Positions 287 through 9,756 of a DNA stretch of 26,215 nucleotides are shown here, one piece after another. Origin of the DNA: a virus. The stretch lies in the IMG/VR virus record IMGVR_UViG_3300009637_000006, positions 1-26,215 of that record; one strand, written 5' to 3'. The position numbers and the translations under genes are program-made. Each line of letters starts with the position of its first letter. Position 1 is the stretch's first letter. The notes beneath the pieces are model-generated. The model was not told where the DNA came from, searched no databases, and saw only the letters and a program-made list of their open reading frames with translations.

Positions 287-414
287 AAGAAACGCCCGAA
301 GTGTTGGACAAGATAACCGATGTTGTACTGGCCTATAAGCCAAAACCGAAGAGCAAAGCAGCCGGGAAACGGAAGCGGAAAGAGAAGAAACTTGAAAATC
401 CTGATCGCGTGTGA
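283..414 (+). CDS. Small basic protein, 43 aa, unknown function
   Basis: The ATG at 283 overlaps the transposase stop (ATGA), which suggests translational coupling inherited from an intact arrangement. The product starts MKETPEVLDKITDVVLAYKP; residues 1-17 can form a short amphipathic helix. The rest is Lys/Arg-rich (KPKPKSK, then GKRKRKEKK), so it is probably nucleic-acid-binding or simply disordered. It overlaps the following methylase-like gene by 23 bases if that gene starts at TTG 392. I do not recognise a family. Support is gene packing and composition only. Confidence 0.5.
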   Translation: MKETPEVLDKITDVVLAYKPKPKSKAAGKRKRKEKKLENPDRV

Positions 415-961
415 GTTCTCTGGCGCGGTCAGACGCGCCTTTCGTGAGCGGGGCCATGATGCGTGGTCCCTTGATATTCTTCCGGCTGCGGATGGGAGCG
501 AGTTCCATATCGTAGGTGACGCTTGGGATGCCTTGCTTCCGTACACCTACCAGTGGGACATGATGATTGCCCATCCGCCTTGCACCCACTTGACCGTTAG
601 CGGCGCTAGATGGTGGAAGGATCGGCAGGACGAGCAAATACAGGCGATAGACCTGTTCATGCTTTTCGCCAATGCCGATATTCCGAAGATCGCCATCGAA
701 AATCCCATCGGCCTGATGTCTACACGTTGGCGCAAGCCAGATCAGATCATCCAGCCTTGGCAGTTCGGGCATGGCGAGATCAAAGGGACGTGTCTTTGGC
801 TGAAAGGTTTGCCGCTTCTCCAGCCGTCCAACATCGTCGATGGAAGAGTACCGAGGGTGCATTATGAATCTCCTGGAATCAAGAACGGTCTTACCCGACA
901 GCAACGGCGCTCAATCACCGACCCAGGCATTGCTGACGCAATGGCCGAGCAGTGGGGCTGA
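392..961 (+). CDS. Minimal C5-cytosine-methyltransferase-like phage protein
   Basis: The protein (189 aa) has the order of C5-cytosine methyltransferase core motifs: an N-terminal AdoMet-binding strand and turn, LKILIACEFSGAVRRAF (motif I-like F-S-G), then SLDI (acidic residue at the end of strand 2), AHPPCTHL (motif IV Pro-Pro-Cys, with the catalytic-type Cys), and IAIENPIG (motif VI-like Glu-Asn). It lacks the length for a target-recognition domain and motifs VIII-X, since true 5mC methylases exceed 300 aa. Short phage proteins of this kind are known and are often annotated as DNA methylase, but their activity is unclear. I choose TTG 392, preceded by GGAAAGAG at 377-384; an in-frame ATG at 320 would overlap nearly all of the 43-aa ORF. 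It converges on the late operon. Confidence 0.7.
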   Translation: MKILIACEFSGAVRRAFRERGHDAWSLDILPAADGSEFHIVGDAWDALLPYTYQWDMMIAHPPCTHLTVSGARWWKDRQDEQIQAIDLFMLFANADIPKIAIENPIGLMSTRWRKPDQIIQPWQFGHGEIKGTCLWLKGLPLLQPSNIVDGRVPRVHYESPGIKNGLTRQQRRSITDPGIADAMAEQWG

Positions 962-1351: not shown

Positions 1352-1612
1352 TCACTTCCCCACAAAGTGCAGGCCGATGTTGATGGCTGCAGCTGCCAGC
1401 AGGCTCACCAGCAGCCAGATAGCTTTATTTGAATTTTTCGTGAATCGCGCCACAGCGTCCTCGACCAGCAAAAGCCGCGAGCTCATTGAAGGATTCTCCT
1501 TGTCTGCCCCAACGTAAAGATCGGTGAACATTTTGTTGACCTTATCTTCCAATGGGCAATCCTCCGACGAATTGCAGACGACTGCCCCGCGGTCCAAGCC
1601 CCGATATGCCAC
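1352..1612 (-). CDS. Small membrane protein with one C-terminal helix (possible lysis accessory)
   Basis: An 86-aa product starts at GTG 1612 behind AAGGAG with a 5-base spacer, a strong site. Residues 1-60 are soluble and polar, then AIWLLVSLLAAAAINIGLHF (about 64-83) is a single membrane segment ending in Val-Gly-Lys. A soluble N-terminus with one C-terminal anchor is the plan of XhlA/hemolysin-like proteins that assist holins, and the place after the fibre genes is where lysis genes commonly sit. No dedicated endolysin is found beside it. The lysis role is only a positional guess; it may be any tail-anchored membrane protein. Confidence 0.6.
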   Translation of the reverse strand: MAYRGLDRGAVVCNSSEDCPLEDKVNKMFTDLYVGADKENPSMSSRLLLVEDAVARFTKNSNKAIWLLVSLLAAAAINIGLHFVGK

Positions 1613-1652: not shown

Positions 1653-2204
1653 TTATGGTTTCGCCGGGTTGTAGGTCCCTGAGACCGTCGGCAAGCTAGG
1701 CGCCTTGGGAGCCGGAGCCTGAACCGGCGCCGAACTCCCTGTCACACCCGCCCGCGTCGTTGCAGGAGCACTCGCCAACGGGCTTGATGCCTCGTACGAG
1801 CCCGAGATCGTGGGCGCTGCAGGCGACGGGATCGATGCCTCAAAGAAAGCCGATGGACGAGACGCCGCGCCTCCGGAGGCAAGAGTTACGGTCGCGTAGT
1901 AGCAGTAGGTCGTGCCAGCAAGGATCGTCGAATCTGCGTAGGTCCAGGCGGTATTGACCATGCCGGTGGCGACCACCTGCGTGCTCGTCAGGGCCGTGTA
2001 CGCCGAGCTCCCAGGAGCTGGGCAAGAGGTCGTGCCCGTCGCGAGCGCGGCGCGATAAAGCTCGAGCGCGCAGGGCTGGGCCGTCGTACAACTGCTATCG
2101 ATGATCGTGAGGGTTTCATTTGCCGCCTGGGCCTGAGCCCGCGGCGCGAAGCCGGCCAGGATGAGCAAAGCCGACAGGGTGAGCAAAACGTTCCGCATTT
2201 TCAT
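1653..2204 (-). CDS. Secreted protein with signal peptide, beta-domain and Pro/Ala-rich tail
   Basis: The 183-aa product begins with a textbook Sec signal: Lys/Arg start (MKMRN), hydrophobic VLLTLSALLILAGFA, and a likely cleavage after A-Q-A at about residue 26. The mature part (about 28-130) has a fibronectin-III-like pattern: an internal Cys pair (Cys 39, Cys 45), AWTYADSTILAGTTYCYYAT and a following ASGGAASRPSA. The last 55 residues are Pro/Ala/Ser-rich and contain two copies of a short ISGSYEA / VSGTYNP motif (about 133 and 174), possibly a linker or cell-wall-spanning tail. The start ATG overlaps the previous gene's stop as ATGA. An extracytoplasmic protein inside a virion operon is unexpected; it might change the host surface or be carried on the particle. 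Confidence 0.65.
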   Translation of the reverse strand: MKMRNVLLTLSALLILAGFAPRAQAQAANETLTIIDSSCTTAQPCALELYRAALATGTTSCPAPGSSAYTALTSTQVVATGMVNTAWTYADSTILAGTTYCYYATVTLASGGAASRPSAFFEASIPSPAAPTISGSYEASSPLASAPATTRAGVTGSSAPVQAPAPKAPSLPTVSGTYNPAKP

Positions 2205-2398
2205 AGTGTCCTCATTCGTTGGTTCATTACTTTCAGCGCCTCGATGCGCGCGATGCAGTCGTCAAGCCGTTTCAGGATCCAGCCCTCGCACAGCGCGTGC
2301 GGCGGCTCTTTCGCCAGCGCAGCCTGCAACGCGTCAAGCCGCAGCACGATCCGCTTCACTTCCGCCCGGTCGTCCACGCCTCGCGTCCCGTTCGTCAT
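2201..2398 (-). CDS. Small helical protein, 65 aa, unknown function
   Basis: It starts at ATG 2398, 8 bases after the stop of the glycine-rich protein gene, and its TGA overlaps the next ATG (ATGA), so it is packed exactly like the other late genes. The product (MTNGTRGVDDRAEVKRIVLR..., then LDALQAAL, ILKRLDDCIARIEAL) is strongly helical with heptad-like hydrophobic spacing, compatible with a small coiled coil. Longer upstream starts in this frame run through the low-complexity glycine-rich gene and are not credible. The ribosome binding site is weak, so expression probably depends on coupling. No family recognised. Confidence 0.55.
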   Translation of the reverse strand: MTNGTRGVDDRAEVKRIVLRLDALQAALAKEPPHALCEGWILKRLDDCIARIEALKVMNQRMRTL

Positions 2399-2406
2399 CG
2401 CCGCGC

Positions 2407-3417
2407 CTATGGAGTGTACGTGATTACCACGATCCCCTGGCCGCCATTGCCGCTGCTGCCTGCGGTATAGGCACCGCCGCCCCCGCCGCCGCCGTACAGG
2501 CCGCCCGTGCCGCCATTGCCGCCGGAGTTGACTGCGTTGCTGCCCGCGCCCCCCGCGCCGCCTCCAGAGCCGTAAGCGCCCCACTCCAGACCCGCGCCGC
2601 CGTTTCCGCCATACAGGCCCGTGTTGGAACCGCCGCCGCCGCCGCCTGAAGCGCCGTTTGCGTCTCCGCCGCCGTTCCCTCCGTTGGCTGAGACGAGGCC
2701 CGCCGCGCCGCCCGTAACGCTGCCGGTGTAGTTAGCCCCTCCAGCGCCAAATTCAATACCGGCGCTTCCTCCGCCAGACCCGCCGCCGCCGGCACCGACC
2801 GCATTCGACAGCCCGTATGCCGCGCCACCGTTTGCGCCCGCGCCGTTCGGGCCGCCAGCGCCCCCAGCGCCACCGGGGATATCATTCCCGTTCCCAAAGC
2901 CGTTGCCGCCGTTTACGCAGGTGCCCGTGCCGCCTGTTCCGCCGCTAATCGTGCCCGCGGGGCCGCCTGCCCCTCCCCCTTTTGCAATCACTGAGGAGCC
3001 GAAGGAGCTCTGGCCGCCAGCCGTGGACGTGACGCCATTCGCACCCCCAACACCGCCTGCGCCCACGGTCACGGTGATGTTCGCCCCTGACGCGTAGCTG
3101 ACAGAGATGGACTTGCAGTATTCTCCGCCGCCGCCGCTCGACTGGCAGCAGCCTGATGCCCCACCCGCGCCGCCGCCGCCGATGGCTTCGACCGTGATGT
3201 TCGCGCCGTTGGTCGTTGCATGCCAGGCAGACTGGGTGCTGGTGCAAAATTCCCGCTGCTGAGACCCTACGACGACACACGCGCAGACCGGCGAATTGAT
3301 GCAGACCGCAGAGCCCGCTGCGACCGCAACCCTGTGCCGCCCCGGCCCCACGTTCTGCGCGAGAGCCGCGACAGATAAGAGCAGGAAACCTGCAAGCCAC
3401 TTCTTATTTCGTTCCAT
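2407..3417 (-). CDS. Glycine-rich tail adhesin-like protein with signal peptide
   Basis: The likely start is ATG 3417 (336 aa), 14 bases inside the end of the preceding fibre gene. The N-terminus MERNKKWLAGFLLLSVAALA is a Sec-type signal with a predicted cut after ALA, before Gln-Asn. Residues about 30-75 hold several Cys (SAVCINSPVCACVV, then CTST), followed by about 240 residues of Gly-Gly-x and Gly-Gly-Gly blocks including CCQSSGGGGEYC, closing with GGQGIVVITYTP. That glycine-rich plan and ending are widespread in phage tail-tip and receptor-binding proteins; polyglycine type II helices form the adhesin of some T-even-like phages. The role as receptor-binding tip is inferred. The GCC/GGC repeats open spurious frames on both strands. 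Confidence 0.65.
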   Translation of the reverse strand: MERNKKWLAGFLLLSVAALAQNVGPGRHRVAVAAGSAVCINSPVCACVVVGSQQREFCTSTQSAWHATTNGANITVEAIGGGGAGGASGCCQSSGGGGEYCKSISVSYASGANITVTVGAGGVGGANGVTSTAGGQSSFGSSVIAKGGGAGGPAGTISGGTGGTGTCVNGGNGFGNGNDIPGGAGGAGGPNGAGANGGAAYGLSNAVGAGGGGSGGGSAGIEFGAGGANYTGSVTGGAAGLVSANGGNGGGDANGASGGGGGGSNTGLYGGNGGAGLEWGAYGSGGGAGGAGSNAVNSGGNGGTGGLYGGGGGGGAYTAGSSGNGGQGIVVITYTP

Positions 3418-5098
3418 AGATTTCCACCGTAATAGTCTTTGCCGTGCCGTCGGGCGAAGGCGTCCATTTGATGTAGCCGCCAGAGCTGATCGTCGTGGTA
3501 CTTCCGGGGGCGATCGCCGTCGCAAAACCGCTGGCACAGGTCAAAGTCGAGGCCAATAGGTTGTTCCCGCTTCCGTCCGTGATGGTGATGGTCGTACCGG
3601 TCCCCGCGTCCACTGAGCACGTTGCGCCCGTGATTGTCCAGGTCACCCCGTCTTTGTTCTGGCAAATCTGATTTGTGGCGTAGGTGCCCGTCGCAAGCGC
3701 CGCCGTTCCTCCGCCGACGCCGTCGCCGCAGTACCATTTCTTGTACTGCGCAGGCACCGAAGGAGCCTGATAAGTCGGCATCGCACTAAGGCCGTTGCCG
3801 GTGAGAGGATCGCCGACGGGCCCTGCGGGCAGGCGTACAACGTTGCCGCCCGGTCCGACGATGAAAATGTCGCCCACTGTGAACGCGCTGGAATTCGTCG
3901 TCGGCTTGAGCGCCAGGATCCCAGCCTGCATGTTGTAGAGGCCGCCCGTCACAAAGGTTATCGTGTCGGAGAGGCTTCCGGCGCCACCCTTGGTCCCGTA
4001 GAAACTCGTGTAGCTAAGCGCCCCATCCACATATCCGGAGGTCTGCAGCGCAATATAGCCGTTTGCCTCCGTCATGGTCGTCACGCCCGCGGCGCGATTG
4101 CTGCCGGAGACGAAAATCAGGTCATTGGCTACCGTCGTCGTGATCGATCCGGTCGACAGGGTTTGCGAAGAGGCAAAAGTGTGGGTCGCTGAGGCTATGG
4201 TGTGGGCATCGATGCAGGAAGAGTTAGCGACGTTGGCAAATTCATAAGCCGACACGATGTTGTAGCCGTTAGTTACGCCGTTGATCGTGGCCGTCGTAGA
4301 GCCGCCCACCGCGCCGCAGGCCACAAACTGCTGTATATCGAATTCGCCGGAGAGCAGATTGCTGTTGGCGAGGGTGAAGGTGTCCCCCTGGGCGTCGCTG
4401 ATTGTGGGCGTGCCGGTGCCGTCGTTGTGCATGAGCTCGACGACGAGCGCATCGCCTGGATTCACGTTCGCGGTCAGAGTGATCGAGGTGCACGGGGGAC
4501 CGCCGCTCGTGCAGTCAGCCACCAGCTTGCTTTGCACCAGCGCGGGAACCACATTGCTCCCGGTGATAATCCCGCCTTCGTTCACGTGGTAGTTGGTGCC
4601 GTCTGACCAAATCGAGACGCCCATCCCTGGAATCAGCGAGCCGGTGCCGAGCGCTACGCCCAGCGCGCCCAGCAGGCTCGATCCGCTCGTGGGGAGCACG
4701 GAAAACGCCGCAAGGCCCTCATTCGAGACAAAAATCATCCACGGCGCGGCAGGCACAGAGGTGGGCAGCGTGAGTCCGCAAGCCGCCGCGCAGTTGAACA
4801 GGATGGCCTTGTTATTGTCCCCTGAGACGGCCGTGTAACTGCCGGTCTGAACGTTTACGCCGTTCAGGCCGCCCCCGCCCCCGCCGCCGCAACCGCTAAA
4901 GACGCCGGCGGCCGAGATGGTGCATCCGGTCGCCGTTTTAGGCGCGTACTTTCCAGTCGACTGGCCGACCATGATCTGACCGGCCGACGGGGGCGTGCTA
5001 CTGCCGGTTCCGCCGTTCGCAGGCTGCTGGACCTGACCCCAGAGGAGCGCCGGCCAAAGAACGACTAAACCGCCAAGGATTCGCTTAAAACTCGCCAT
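3404..5098 (-). CDS. Tail-fibre-like multidomain protein with signal peptide
   Basis: From ATG 5098 the product is 564 aa. Residues 1-22 (MASFKRILGGLVVLWPALLW) look like a Sec signal ending at G-Q. Then comes ANGGTGSSTPPSAGQIMVGQ (28-46), the NGGTG...GQ motif typical of phage tail fibres; a beta-domain at about 83-175 (SYTAVSGDN, GLTLP, SDGTNYHV); a second domain at about 185-400 (PGDALVVEL, SDAQGDTFTLA, SAYEFANV); and a C-terminal Cys-containing domain at about 452-564 (KKWYCGDG, VTWTITGATC, GYIKW). A fibre or host-recognition role is inferred from order and motifs. It overlaps the previous gene by 34 bases. The ribosome binding site is weak; an upstream in-frame start at 5134 exists but would bury the signal peptide. 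Confidence 0.65.
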   Translation of the reverse strand: MASFKRILGGLVVLWPALLWGQVQQPANGGTGSSTPPSAGQIMVGQSTGKYAPKTATGCTISAAGVFSGCGGGGGGGLNGVNVQTGSYTAVSGDNNKAILFNCAAACGLTLPTSVPAAPWMIFVSNEGLAAFSVLPTSGSSLLGALGVALGTGSLIPGMGVSIWSDGTNYHVNEGGIITGSNVVPALVQSKLVADCTSGGPPCTSITLTANVNPGDALVVELMHNDGTGTPTISDAQGDTFTLANSNLLSGEFDIQQFVACGAVGGSTTATINGVTNGYNIVSAYEFANVANSSCIDAHTIASATHTFASSQTLSTGSITTTVANDLIFVSGSNRAAGVTTMTEANGYIALQTSGYVDGALSYTSFYGTKGGAGSLSDTITFVTGGLYNMQAGILALKPTTNSSAFTVGDIFIVGPGGNVVRLPAGPVGDPLTGNGLSAMPTYQAPSVPAQYKKWYCGDGVGGGTAALATGTYATNQICQNKDGVTWTITGATCSVDAGTGTTITITDGSGNNLLASTLTCASGFATAIAPGSTTTISSGGYIKWTPSPDGTAKTITVEIYGTK

Positions 5099-5611: not shown

Positions 5612-8600
5612 TTAAGCCGCGCCAGGCACGCCGGTGGGCACGTAAATGTATGGTGTCACATCGGCCAGAGACTGGAGCGCAGCGCCGAAGGTGTTGAACG
5701 TACAGATTTTGAAATAGAGCACCTGGCCGATGTAGGCAGGCGGCATGGTCATCTTCAGGATTCCCGCCTGGCTCGGGCCCACCACGGCGAAGCGCATGCC
5801 GGCCGGATGGTCGATCCCCGGGCCGCCCGAATTCGGCGCCAGGAAGATCGAACGGCGCAGGGAGTTCCCAACGCCCGTCGCCTCGAGAGTGTAGGCATTG
5901 GGGCCTGTGAGCGTGGCCACCGCGTAGCTCATGAGTTCGTAGCCGAACCCGGCGCCGCTCGGCGAAGCCACTGCCGAGCCGGCGACCTCGATGGTGCCCG
6001 CAAGACCCACAGGAGAGCCGGCGACGTTCACCTGGAGCGGATCGCCTGCAGCCACGATCGTGCCGTTCACGTCGACAATGAGCGCGCCGCCCTCGACGTA
6101 GCACGGTACTTCGAAGTTGTTTTCAACCGTTGTGGAATAGGACTCAAGCGCCCCGTCCGATTCGGCCAGGTTGACCTCGAGGTTGTTCGTCGAGTCTGGA
6201 TCGGCAGCGGCTGGCCAGTCGGCAGTGACCTCGCCTGTGACGGCCGAGCCGATCACGATGTTCGAGTTCGCGTCTGCGCCTCCAGGAGCCGGGTTGTAGC
6301 TCACGCCGCCATCGGTCGAAACGAAGATCTGCGCGCCGCCATAGTTCGCGTCGTTGCTCGAAACCACCACCCAGATCTCATCGCCGGCCGAGCCGGGATA
6401 GAGGCCCGGCGTCGGCTCGAAAATGATCGGCGCGTTGGCATTGCCGGCGCTTTGCTGGGGATTGACCGGGGTCGGCGCGGGCGTGGTCGCGGGGAGCAGC
6501 GCGGGTGCGCACATCCCGTAAACGAAGGGCTCGGCCGTCACGGCGAAGCTGCCGTCGTCCTGTTCGTTGTAGCTGGTGATTCGGACCGGGACCCCGATGA
6601 TGCCCTGGAGCTCATCGGTGAGCGTCACGAGATCCATGGGCGAGAGCAGCGACCAGCGCGCGGTCGTTCTGAAGCTCCACACATCGCCGCCGTACTGATT
6701 GCGCCGCACTTGGATCCCGAGAATGGTGCGCGCGATCGAGGGATCCTGGACCGCATTGTTGGTGACCGGATCATCCTTGCGGACCCCATAAAGCCCGAGC
6801 GTGGCCGGATCCGGCGTCTGCACGGTGACCTGGGCATAGTTCGCGTTGCGGTCGACGCACTGCATCTGAAGCACGTTCGGCAGATCGATGCGCACTGCGG
6901 TATCGAGCGAAGGGCAGTCCGAGAGTACGAAGTCGCCAGCATCGGCGTCGAGCTCGGCGACGGGCCCGGCGGCCGAGGGCGCCTGGTAAAACGCTCCGTT
7001 GCCCGCGGCCGAGACCTCGGAGTAGGGATAGAGGTAGAACTTGGCGCCTAGAAACACCGGGGCGGCATTGGCAGCGCTGCAGAGCGTCTTGATCCAGTCC
7101 GACGCCGCCGACTGCGAATTCATCGTGAGCGAGCCCCAGAGGCCGTTGGCGCGGCATTGCGCGCGCACCAGGTCAAAGGACGGGATGTCGACGAAGTCCC
7201 CGAGCGGTCGTGGATAGGGCACCGGCTCGGTGGCCTTGATGGCGAGCAGACAGATCGAAGCCGGCGAGCCAGCTGCTCCCGCAGCCGCGAACGCACCAGG
7301 TGAGTGAATGATGCGCTCCTGCATTTGGAATGTGCTCGGGGACCGCCCGGGGAAGTTCGCCGGGGTCACCGCGCGCCACAGGGGCTCGTCCGCGACCGGT
7401 GAGGCCCCGCCACCGGGATAAAGCGAGATGGCCAGCAGGTAACCAGGCAGGCCCTCGGCGACGCTGCTAGAGGCCTGCGCGGGGCCGCTTGAGGAGGTCG
7501 CCACGGCGTCGACCGTCTCGCCGCCTAGATAGCCCGGGGGAATGCTGTACGAGACAAGCAACCCCACCTGGGTGACCACCATATTCCCGGAGTAGTTCGA
7601 AAGCTGAACGGTGGCGTTGAACTGAAAATTAAAGCTGGCGGCCTCGAGCGCAGGCGCCGTCGTGCCGAAGCTGGGGCCGGTCCACACCCCAGAAAATGGC
7701 GGCGGCGGGAAAGAGCCCGATGGGACGCTGGCAGAGAACTCCAGTGAGCTGTTGTCAGTCGTGAGCGTCGAAACAAAGGTCACGACCGGCTGGATGGCGG
7801 TGACCACGACACCGGCTGGCAAAGCAGGCCACTCAAATCCACCCCATTCAAGGACCGTGTGCACATTCTCGTAGAGGTTGAACGGCGGGTAAACGCCGCT
7901 AACTGCCATCATCCCGCCGTCCACCGTTGCGCTGGCGGTGGCAGTGTTTGTGGGACCGGCCGAGGCGCTGGCGCCGCTCGTGGTTGGCGGAACGAAGATA
8001 GTGCTTCCGGTGGAAGCGCCTACCCCGCCGATCTCAAGGATTCCCATGCCCCAGGGAGCCGACGCGCCGGAGACGGTGACCGTGTTCGGACCCCCGACCG
8101 CATAGGCGTACCAGACCTGGTAGCCGAGCCCGTCGCCATAGACCTTGGTCCAGGTTTCGCCGTTCGTCGAGCTGATCCCGAGCGTGCCAGAGCCGGTGGC
8201 CGTCGCGATGAGAATATTGCCGGCGGCGTTCGGCATGTCGTACATCATCGGGGGCAGACCCACGGTGGCGCTGGCGTCGACCTTCTTCTGGATCGTGCCA
8301 GGCAGGTCGTAGCTCGAGAGCCCGCGCTCCATCTGGGTCGCCGCCGGCTGGGGCTGCACGGAGGTCTCGGCCGCGATCGCCGCCTGCGCCATGCCCGACT
8401 TATAGATGTCCTCGATCATGTCCACAAAATCGGCATCCCCGCTCGAGTACACCCCCCACTTAAATGCAACCTCCGGATTCAGCTGCGGGATCGCGCCCGA
8501 GGCCCCGAGGTCGAGTTCCGAGCTCTGCAGGCCCGCGAAATGTGGATAAACGATCTGCTGAGAGCTAAGGCCGGCGTTCGCGTACTCGTCGCCCGAGCCG

Positions 8601-9280
8601 AGCTGGGGCTCGAAGGCCATGGCGAGCCTTGCGATCGGGGGCTGGTTCGAGGTCGCTGCGGTGAGCTGGGCGTAATACACGTTGACCGTGCCGGCCGGGA
8701 ACGACTCGGCGTCCAAATAGACGGTGGCGCCCATGCCCTGCTGCCAGCGATAGCAGAACGGCCAGGTCCGGTAGCTCATCGGATTGGTCGGATCCGGCCC
8801 GACCTCAAGCTCGTTCCAGAGCGGGATTTCCCAAGAGCCCGAGAGCGTCTGCGGCCCCTGGCCACCGTAATCGTCGACCGAAAAACTGTAGCTCGCGGTG
8901 AGCGTGACGGCGATCACGAAGTAAAAGTTCGGGTCCGTGACCGTCAAAGACTGCCGGCCGCCGGCGCCGGCAAACGACTGCTCCTGAAAGGCCAGGGGCG
9001 CGTTCGACCCATTGTTCATCACCTGGAGCACGCCGCGGATCGGATTGTGTCCAAGGAGAAAGTCTATGTTTTCACAGTAGTTAGTGATGCCCTTCTTCAG
9101 TTGCTTGAACTTTTTGGTACCGGCGCCGCCTTGCCGAAGGTTCGCCGCCCAGATGGCGAGCAAGTTGGACTGCGTTTGACCGTACCCAACCGGGATCGTC
9201 GCGCCATACGCCGAGGCCTGCAGAAGCGAACCCATAGCGGTGGGGCGCTGCGCTGCCTGATCTTTGAAAGTGACCGTCAT
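5612..9280 (-). CDS. Tail hub / tip attachment protein (J-like, GTA gp15-like)
   Basis: The largest gene encodes 1222 aa at the end of the tail module, after the NlpC/P60 peptidase, with an ATGA overlap. Residues 1-330 are the N-terminal hub part (TIPVGYGQTQSNLLAIWAAN near 28-47). Residues about 345-600 are an adhesin-like insertion (GNILIATATGSG, SSTNGETWTKVYG, MGILEIGGV). Residues about 695-930 carry the J/tail-hub core: DIPSFDLVRAQCRANGLWGS, LCSAANAAPVFLGAKFYLYP, AVQDPSIARTILGIQ, LSPMDLVTLTD and VPVRITS. Residues 950-1222 look like sequential beta-sandwich fibre domains. It should form the baseplate hub that opens the tail tube and carries receptor-binding parts. The N-terminus and core fit the family; the domain limits are estimates. 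Confidence 0.82.
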   Translation of the reverse strand: MTVTFKDQAAQRPTAMGSLLQASAYGATIPVGYGQTQSNLLAIWAANLRQGGAGTKKFKQLKKGITNYCENIDFLLGHNPIRGVLQVMNNGSNAPLAFQEQSFAGAGGRQSLTVTDPNFYFVIAVTLTASYSFSVDDYGGQGPQTLSGSWEIPLWNELEVGPDPTNPMSYRTWPFCYRWQQGMGATVYLDAESFPAGTVNVYYAQLTAATSNQPPIARLAMAFEPQLGSGDEYANAGLSSQQIVYPHFAGLQSSELDLGASGAIPQLNPEVAFKWGVYSSGDADFVDMIEDIYKSGMAQAAIAAETSVQPQPAATQMERGLSSYDLPGTIQKKVDASATVGLPPMMYDMPNAAGNILIATATGSGTLGISSTNGETWTKVYGDGLGYQVWYAYAVGGPNTVTVSGASAPWGMGILEIGGVGASTGSTIFVPPTTSGASASAGPTNTATASATVDGGMMAVSGVYPPFNLYENVHTVLEWGGFEWPALPAGVVVTAIQPVVTFVSTLTTDNSSLEFSASVPSGSFPPPPFSGVWTGPSFGTTAPALEAASFNFQFNATVQLSNYSGNMVVTQVGLLVSYSIPPGYLGGETVDAVATSSSGPAQASSSVAEGLPGYLLAISLYPGGGASPVADEPLWRAVTPANFPGRSPSTFQMQERIIHSPGAFAAAGAAGSPASICLLAIKATEPVPYPRPLGDFVDIPSFDLVRAQCRANGLWGSLTMNSQSAASDWIKTLCSAANAAPVFLGAKFYLYPYSEVSAAGNGAFYQAPSAAGPVAELDADAGDFVLSDCPSLDTAVRIDLPNVLQMQCVDRNANYAQVTVQTPDPATLGLYGVRKDDPVTNNAVQDPSIARTILGIQVRRNQYGGDVWSFRTTARWSLLSPMDLVTLTDELQGIIGVPVRITSYNEQDDGSFAVTAEPFVYGMCAPALLPATTPAPTPVNPQQSAGNANAPIIFEPTPGLYPGSAGDEIWVVVSSNDANYGGAQIFVSTDGGVSYNPAPGGADANSNIVIGSAVTGEVTADWPAAADPDSTNNLEVNLAESDGALESYSTTVENNFEVPCYVEGGALIVDVNGTIVAAGDPLQVNVAGSPVGLAGTIEVAGSAVASPSGAGFGYELMSYAVATLTGPNAYTLEATGVGNSLRRSIFLAPNSGGPGIDHPAGMRFAVVGPSQAGILKMTMPPAYIGQVLYFKICTFNTFGAALQSLADVTPYIYVPTGVPGAA

Positions 9281-9756
9281 GCGGGCTCCATCTTAGCGAA
9301 GGGGTCAAAGATCTCCATGGGCCGAAACGCCGTGAGCCTATGCGTCGTGAGGGTGATTTCATGCACGCCGTCGACGCCGGCATGCACGCCGCGGGGCCAG
9401 GAGGTCACAATCGCGCCATGGTTGAAGACTTTGCTCTGTATCACCCGGAAGAGCACCAGGTCGCCCGGCTCAGCTTTCGAGTCCGCCCGGCAAAGGCAAA
9501 GGGAGCGAGCGCCGTCGACGCCAAAGCGCACCAGGCCGCGGAGGTAGCGCTCGTGCGAGCCGTGCAAAAACCAGTCGTGCCGATAGGGATCCTCGAGTCC
9601 ATCCCAAAGATCCGGCTGTGCGGTGCCGATCTCAATCAGGTAGCAGCCGAGCAAAGTGGCGCAATCGACGCCGGCGCCCTTCATCCGGCCCCCAAGGACA
9701 TAAGGCGTCCCGATGAACGAACGCGCGATTTCGACTGCCTCGGCCCGCGTTTTCAT
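9277..9756 (-). CDS. NlpC/P60-family tail peptidase (GTA gp14-like)
   Basis: A 159-aa NlpC/P60 cysteine peptidase of the tail-tip type. The catalytic Cys is in GAGVDCATLLG (Cys 32), the His is in VFNHGAIV (His 113), and the third polar residue is probably His 125 in RGVHAG. TPYVLGGRMK (17-26) precedes the Cys as in the family, and EPGDLVLF (96-103) is the usual strand before the His. In gene transfer agents and siphophages this gene always stands between the DUF2163 protein and the hub, as here. Known members cut peptide bonds in peptidoglycan during DNA entry. It is the only cell-wall hydrolase recognised in the window. Gap to the previous gene is 3 bases, with an ATGA overlap with the hub. 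Confidence 0.88.
   Translation of the reverse strand: MKTRAEAVEIARSFIGTPYVLGGRMKGAGVDCATLLGCYLIEIGTAQPDLWDGLEDPYRHDWFLHGSHERYLRGLVRFGVDGARSLCLCRADSKAEPGDLVLFRVIQSKVFNHGAIVTSWPRGVHAGVDGVHEITLTTHRLTAFRPMEIFDPFAKMEPA

Follow-up and report, generated by a model that had tools for sequence, protein, structure and literature searches.

The present data suggest that parts of the host-recognition apparatus of a group of tailed phages may be made outside the cytoplasm, as predicted Sec-type signal peptides are found on tail-region proteins in the window (the whole stretch of soil-phage DNA analysed, 26,215 nucleotides), in many of its relatives and in two cultured Acidobacteriota phages unrelated to it and to each other; no tailed phage is known to make its fibres in this way. 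It is well supported by the sequences compared that such signals stand on non-homologous bodies within the tail operon, that these bodies are enriched in cysteine and that they have split and fused equivalents; the predicted export of fibre-region proteins is likewise well supported. The reading that best accommodates these data, to which we give about even credence, proposes that late-made distal fibres or adhesins would be exported, mature in the periplasm and join cytoplasm-assembled tails at lysis. Within it we infer signal cleavage and disulfide formation and, most of all, that fibres once exported dock on the particle and become part of the virion.

Three open reading frames carry this arrangement in the window, all on the minus strand: P0001 (3404..5098, tail-fibre-like, 564 aa), P0002 (2407..3417, glycine-rich and adhesin-like, 336 aa) and P0003 (1653..2204, 183 aa). 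The proposal of an earlier, sequence-only reading that each begins with a Sec signal peptide was borne out, as each has a basic n-region and an uncharged run of 14–16 residues (15 in P0001, 14 in P0002, 16 in P0003), with Gln possible at +1 in all three; substrates of Sec and signal peptidase I are expected to show a basic n-region, a hydrophobic core of about 7–15 residues and small residues at -3 and -1. The predicted signal peptides comprise residues 1–21 of P0001 (5036..5098, minus strand; MASFKRILGGLVVLWPALLWG/QVQQPANGGTG, the slash marking the proposed cut, here G21/Q22), residues 1–20 of P0002 (3358..3417, minus strand; MERNKKWLAGFLLLSVAALA/QNVGP, site A-L-A/Q) and residues 1–25 of P0003 (2130..2204, minus strand; MKMRNVLLTLSALLILAGFAPRAQA/QAANE, site A-Q-A/Q). 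The site type ascribed to all three is small-X-small/Q; that of P0001 itself (L-W-G/Q) is weak and non-canonical, and at the same place the close relatives L036, L045 and L091 have the canonical A-A-A/Q or A-S-A/Q. The NGGTG fibre motif of P0001 (residues 28–32, 5003..5017, minus strand), which the same reading had placed just after the signal, indeed starts six residues past the proposed cut. Shine-Dalgarno-like sequences (GGTG/AGGA type) precede P0002 and P0003. Signal peptides were called by a hand-written rule that is also passed by 3.3% (12/365) of upstream head and tail genes, some of them probably with real signal peptides, and that scored P0001 on another, less likely site than L-W-G/Q. 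Whole-protein shuffles passed in 2.0% (P0001), 1.1% (P0002) and 4.0% (P0003) of trials, and apart from these three proteins no gene product among the roughly 24 called in the window passes. The label "adhesin-like" suits P0002, which scores 23.9 bits against Gly_rich_2, just below the curated Pfam cut-off of 24.3, and matches PHROG 863 (E 9e-11). A better description of P0003 would be a small, predicted secreted protein in which a putative FN3-like domain precedes or accompanies a Pro-rich tail; profile comparison matched the FN3-like 3mpc (E 0.0028), the best Foldseek match was 6zva (E 0.008, with none below 0.001), and a Pfam search gave no match. The structure model of P0001 is poor (pLDDT 38.7), with values mostly of 54–70 within a beta-sandwich module (about residues 80–175, 4574..4861, minus strand) that is homologous to gene 1 of the window (36%), to gene 1 of L100, L108, L109 and L115 (33–42%) and to signal-less fused fibres.

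These genes directly follow the hub within the late tail operon, as fibre genes would. The tail hub or tip protein P0005 (5612..9280, minus strand, 1222 aa; Pfam Phage-tail_3, E 9.7e-12; PHROG 1101 tail protein, E 1.8e-15) is followed by gene 1, P0004 (5065..5601, minus strand, 178 aa), a putative cytoplasmic fibre adaptor or stalk that has no signal peptide and ends in a Phage_depo_C-like beta sandwich (Pfam PF25692, E 1.1e-6). P0001 overlaps gene 1 by 34 nt and P0002 overlaps P0001 by 14 nt; in ten relatives the overlap with gene 1 is 23–34 nt, which implies co-expression with the tail operon. Between 1000 and 9500 no promoter-like site was found by a sigma-70 consensus only, and the genes thus do not resemble a moron with its own promoter apart from the late operon. 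A programmed frameshift joining gene 1 and P0001 was considered and rejected, as the frame offset is not conserved, given overlaps of 34 nt versus 23, 29 and 32 nt, and several relatives have strong ribosome sites.

The search of related phages that had been recommended found the same arrangement. Among 62 relatives, collected by alignment of the hub gene, signal-peptide-like N-termini occur in 33 of 79 non-redundant genes at positions 2–4 past the hub, compared with the 12 of 365 upstream head and tail genes (Fisher p 1.7e-18), and the bodies that bear them differ; gene 1 passes the rule in only 2 of 37 non-redundant cases. On the hub tree, the distribution of big signal-bearing fibres needs about seven gains or losses, at least five of them forced. 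Several relatives have a conserved motif, I/V-x-P-x-Q-I-x-W, at the predicted mature N-terminus directly past the signal, which is not taken as proof of docking because the window lacks it. Single-protein searches of viral contigs with P0001 and P0003 returned near-identical contigs only, and P0001 had no match in a phage collection. Host origin of the whole fibre was rejected, as P0001-type bodies match just 2 of 396 Acidobacteriota genomes; one match is a related prophage (L069), and another, in the same MAG, is a signal-bearing protein on non-prophage-looking sequence with one module in common.

A pair of sister phages links the signal-bearing proteins, by domain homology, to fibres in which the tail-attachment part is present. 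L109 has one fibre, a gene 1 of 554 aa without a signal, whereas in L115 the adaptor half has no signal and the distal half is a separate gene with one; gene 1 of L109 matches gene 1 of L115 at 72% over residues 1–157 and the signal-bearing gene of L115 at 43% over 270 aa. L074 and L039 form a second, weaker case (35% over 181 aa). Extra cysteine, the adaptation expected in an oxidising compartment, is seen as well: homologous domains have 2.21 cysteines per 100 residues with a signal versus 0.65 without, the signal-bearing member having more in 17 of 19 pairs and fewer in none, although the pairs are not independent, and the overall values are 1.92 versus 1.00 and 0.49 per 100. In a suggestive look at raw counts, the number of cysteines was even in 21/29 versus 76/194. 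As judged from sequence comparison, the split and fused pair and the cysteine gain speak for a genuine export of fibre material.

Cultured phages of Acidobacteriota extend the pattern to genes that were annotated independently of this analysis. The podophage Tunturi_1 has signals on gp12, gp13, gp14 (annotated as tail spike), gp16 and gp17, including all long fibre or spike candidates in the block downstream of gp11, and the siphophage Tunturi_4 has them on gp113 and gp114; Tunturi_1 gp17 shares 50% identity with Tunturi_4 gp114 over 593 aa, although the two phages are otherwise unrelated. Like the window proteins, Tunturi_1 gp12–17 and Tunturi_4 gp113–114 are large, cysteine-rich, signal-bearing and located in the tail region, and several are annotated as tail or virion structural proteins; however, the two phages belong to lineages different from that of the window phage and the bodies are mostly different. 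The main text of the paper describing the Tunturi phages does not mention signal peptides. The fibres examined in Tunturi_3 and Tunturi_5 showed no signals; as Tunturi_3 and Tunturi_1 share a host strain, that host does not oblige its phages to export fibres.

In the preferred reading, P0001, P0002 and probably P0003 would be recognition proteins that belong to the virion or associate with it; made late, they would be exported via Sec, lose their signal to signal peptidase I and fold in the oxidising periplasm, where disulfides are possible. Assembly of the head, the tail, the hub and the short adaptor encoded by gene 1 would meanwhile proceed in the cytoplasm, and upon failure of the inner membrane at lysis the mature fibres would attach to gene 1 or to the hub. 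Relatives with a fused fibre, L109 among them, would have no need of export, the distal domain being the C-terminus of gene 1. A broader form, to which we give rather less than even credence, extends this to Acidobacteriota tailed phages, with cytoplasmic heads and tails joined at lysis by Sec-exported, disulfide-bearing periplasmic fibres whose signal-bearing distal halves are repeatedly gained or lost, related ones occurring across morphologies.

The sequence-only reading was right that export needs explaining, and the evidence now reaches well past the window. Its proposal that proteins and particle come together at the envelope or beyond it fits best, given the split and fused pair, the cysteine gain and the Tunturi_1 spike candidates, whereas its two other proposals, display on the lysogen and uncleaved anchors, are disfavoured. 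The main rival, possible but on the doubtful side, is that the proteins are exported and act off the virion, as free fibres or adhesins in the periplasm or on the cell surface late in infection, where they may make receptors inaccessible, cleave or loosen exopolysaccharide, or stop progeny sticking to debris, host recognition being left to other, signal-less virion proteins. Signals and cysteines are expected equally in this scenario, and L088, L100 and L108 do possess a long signal-less gene 1 plus separate small exported proteins. However, the distal domain of the fused relatives is missing from gene 1 in the split cases (the window, L115 and L039), so that the virion would lose it, and in Tunturi_1 no long candidate downstream of gp11 is free of a signal. 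A published parallel exists in gp40 of Xanthomonas phage PBR31, an esterase with a signal peptide and similarity to phage tail-associated hydrolases, which was proposed as a lysis aid and discussed alongside spanins (PMC10975493); unlike the window set, it is a single esterase.

It is improbable that the hydrophobic N-termini are virion membrane or hydrophobic anchors, or trimerisation aids, retained rather than serving as export signals. Long hydrophobic runs with no clear cleavage site in L120 and L104 would suit such a role, but most cores are short, the predicted sites have Ala at -1 in 27/31, Ala at -3 in 20/31 and Gln at +1 in 17/31, and a gain of cysteine is not predicted. Lysogenic conversion, in which a prophage would express the proteins for display on the lysogen (receptor masking or biofilm adhesion), is highly improbable: Acidobacteriota genomes do contain related prophages (L069, with a signal-bearing fibre, and G410), but the overlaps of 14–34 nt within the tail operon and the lack of a promoter-like site by sigma-70 consensus between 1000 and 9500 speak against it, and Tunturi_1, which forms clear plaques and has no reported or annotated integrase, has the strongest signal set. 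The chance that wrong start codons or fortuitous hydrophobic N-termini created the pattern is close to negligible, even though the Shine-Dalgarno sequence of P0001 is weak and a longer GTG start is possible; the pattern recurs on many unrelated bodies, ribosome sites are strong in relatives such as L042, L078 and L069, and the survey contrast together with the Tunturi genes refutes artefact as a general explanation.

The known fibres of tailed phages are synthesised and attached within the cytoplasm and lack a signal peptide. The window fibres share with ordinary NGGTG/Phage_depo_C fibres the position after the hub, the modular turnover of bodies, the NGGTG motif and the gene-1 beta-sandwich module, but differ in their signals, which the examined fibres of same-hub Proteobacteria phages (Acinetobacter, Brevundimonas and Pseudomonas) lack; they are thus a variant rather than the ordinary fibre. 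The coat proteins pIII and pVIII of filamentous phages also pass through Sec and signal peptidase before they enter the virion, and these virions assemble in the membrane, whereas the window encodes an ordinary capsid and tail operon of the cytoplasm-assembled kind. T5 Llp and lambda Bor, Lom and Cor are phage-encoded, Sec-exported proteins that act at the envelope, but they are small, not fibre-like and in their own transcription units, unlike the window genes, which form part of the tail operon and have counterparts in fused fibres. No documented tailed phage that adds Sec-exported fibres at lysis was found in the literature.

If exported fibres reach virions, tail assembly would not be confined to the cytoplasm; the host-recognition apparatus would be partly added at lysis, and disulfide bonds could toughen it for acid soil. 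Searches for receptor-binding proteins would also change, as a gene with a signal is readily dismissed as a host gene or a moron. If the proteins instead act off the virion, they would constitute a new group of phage proteins that are exported late and located at the surface of the host. In either case the question concerns phages of Acidobacteriota, among the commonest soil phyla, and cultured hosts and phages (Tunturi_1 and Tunturi_4) make the export idea directly testable.

In the 26,215-bp IMG/VR record, the late operon runs on the minus strand from portal and capsid through the tape measure to a 1222-aa tail hub (5612-9280) and then the fibre block. The block opens with gene 1 (P0004, 5065-5601, minus strand), a signal-less 178-aa protein with a C-terminal Phage_depo_C-like domain, followed on the same strand by the tail-fibre-like P0001 (3404-5098), the glycine-rich adhesin-like P0002 (2407-3417), a 65-aa ORF and the FN3-like P0003 (1653-2204). 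Overlaps of 34 nt between gene 1 and P0001 and of 14 nt between P0001 and P0002 make it very probable that the block and the tail genes are expressed together. At 5065-5098, P0001 codons 1-11, including the signal n-region, are overprinted on the gene 1 3' end; among relatives, this overlap measures 23-34 nt, with differing frame offsets. Beyond the block lie an 86-aa ORF (1352-1612, minus strand) whose hydrophobic C-terminal segment may point to a holin or membrane protein and for which a family search gave no convincing match, and, opposite to the operon, a DNA methyltransferase-like gene (320-961, plus strand; PHROG 757, E 1.5e-63).

The signal-like N-termini that the sequence-only reading had described on P0001, P0002 and P0003 are all present, each with a basic start, an uncharged core (15, 14 and 16 residues, respectively) and a small-X-small site followed by Gln. 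No other called gene of the window passes the simple hand-written signal rule that these three satisfy; 1-4% of their whole-protein shuffles satisfy it by chance. The P0001 site is weak (LWG↓Q), and the aligned site in relatives is canonical (AAA↓Q, ASA↓Q). The arrangement also recurs in related phages, as that reading had suggested checking. A hub-alignment scan yielded 63 viral loci (~33-100% identity) and prophage L069 in an Acidobacteriota MAG, and a phylum-level search added a further strong prophage, G410. With genes called by our own caller, gene 1 hardly ever scores as signal-like (2/37 non-redundant), and the three positions after it do so in 33/79 non-redundant cases vs 12/365 upstream genes (Fisher p 1.7e-18), or 22/79 vs 3/365 at the strictest setting. 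Of 31 cleavage sites, 27 have Ala at -1, 20 have it at -3 and 17 have Gln at +1, and the bodies behind them vary widely (P0001-type, INPNQIxW-type, beta-rich, small FN3-like). That Sec-type signals lie in the late tail operon and are kept while bodies change is well supported at the sequence level. In same-hub phages of Acinetobacter, Brevundimonas and Pseudomonas, fibre-region genes are without signal, the only scoring genes being short and membrane-protein-like.

Several observations stand beside this pattern. A short INPNQIxW-like motif, possibly a docking peptide, occurs at the mature N-terminus right after the signal in L039, L042, L046, L069, L090 and L120, whose bodies otherwise differ, and almost only in signal-bearing proteins. 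Upstream of its hub, locus L098 (2506-9063) encodes a signal-bearing protein of 2185 aa and 47 Cys, flanked by tail genes on one side and the peptidase on the other. L107 (480 aa) and L117 (669 aa) likewise have a signal-bearing gene that lies between the tape measure and the hub; exported proteins have here a second site of insertion. At L143 (~7938-9461, G016:C9), non-prophage-looking sequence of the Acidobacteriota MAG encodes a signal-bearing protein that has a module in common with P0001 (E 6e-11); the signal or the module may have come from there.

The fibre occurs in fused and split forms. After the hub, L109 has a single signal-less 554-aa gene. Its sister L115 has two genes instead: the gene-1 part, 72% identical, is cut short, and 10 bp further downstream a second gene, which bears a signal, matches the L109 C-terminal part (43% over 270 aa). 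In a second, weaker case, the signal-bearing fibre C-terminus of L039 matches that of fused L074 (35% over 181 aa). By the usual fused-gene argument, the separate products belong to one structure. The existence of exported copies of fibre domains is well supported at the sequence level. The distribution of large signal-bearing fibres over the hub tree calls for about seven gains or losses, of which five or more are forced. Cultured phages of Tunturiibacter (PMC11924767) serve as an independent test. Among the tail-region genes of the podovirus Tunturi_1, five bear signals: gp12 (1190 aa, 20 Cys), gp13 (675 aa, 10 Cys), the annotated tail spike gp14 (919 aa, 21 Cys), gp16 and gp17 (1184 aa, 32 Cys). 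The siphovirus Tunturi_4 has gp113 and gp114, the latter 50% identical to gp17 over 593 aa, in unrelated genomes (PMC11924767), and an exported protein of hub relative L103 also matches this pair. No signals are present on the fibre genes inspected in Tunturi_3 and in the first 50 kb of Tunturi_5; as Tunturi_1 and Tunturi_3 share a host strain, export is an option, not a requirement. Signal peptides go unmentioned in the main text of the Tunturi paper (PMC11924767).

These data allow a model in which signal peptides would be cleaved, disulfides would form in the exported fibres, and, at lysis, the fibres would dock on gene 1 or the hub. What argues most strongly for docking is that split phages would otherwise be without the distal domain present in fused relatives, and that the long spike candidates of the Tunturi_1 block are all signal-bearing. 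The main rival is that exported proteins act off the virion; its best evidence comes from L088, L100 and L108, in which small exported proteins accompany long fibres that lack a signal. Export itself, rather than retention as a membrane or hydrophobic anchor as had been proposed, is favoured by cysteine content, as adaptation to an oxidising compartment predicts enrichment and an unexported anchor does not. Exported downstream proteins carry 1.92 Cys per 100 residues, other downstream proteins 1.00 and upstream proteins 0.49; in homologous-domain pairs, which draw repeatedly on four exported proteins and lack independence, the exported copy is richer in 17/19 and poorer in 0/19 (2.21 vs 0.65 per 100). 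Display on the lysogen surface, also proposed earlier, is disfavoured by the placement of the genes within the tail operon and by Tunturi_1, which has clear plaques and no annotated integrase.

No account of tail fibres exported through Sec turned up in a search of the open-access literature, with subscription literature and preprints outside its scope, the nearest published case being the signal-bearing, tail-hydrolase-like esterase of Xanthomonas phage PBR31 (PMC10975493). Signal-bearing fibres can be classed as a variant of tail fibres, and two-compartment virion assembly is, from the sequence evidence, credible but unproven.
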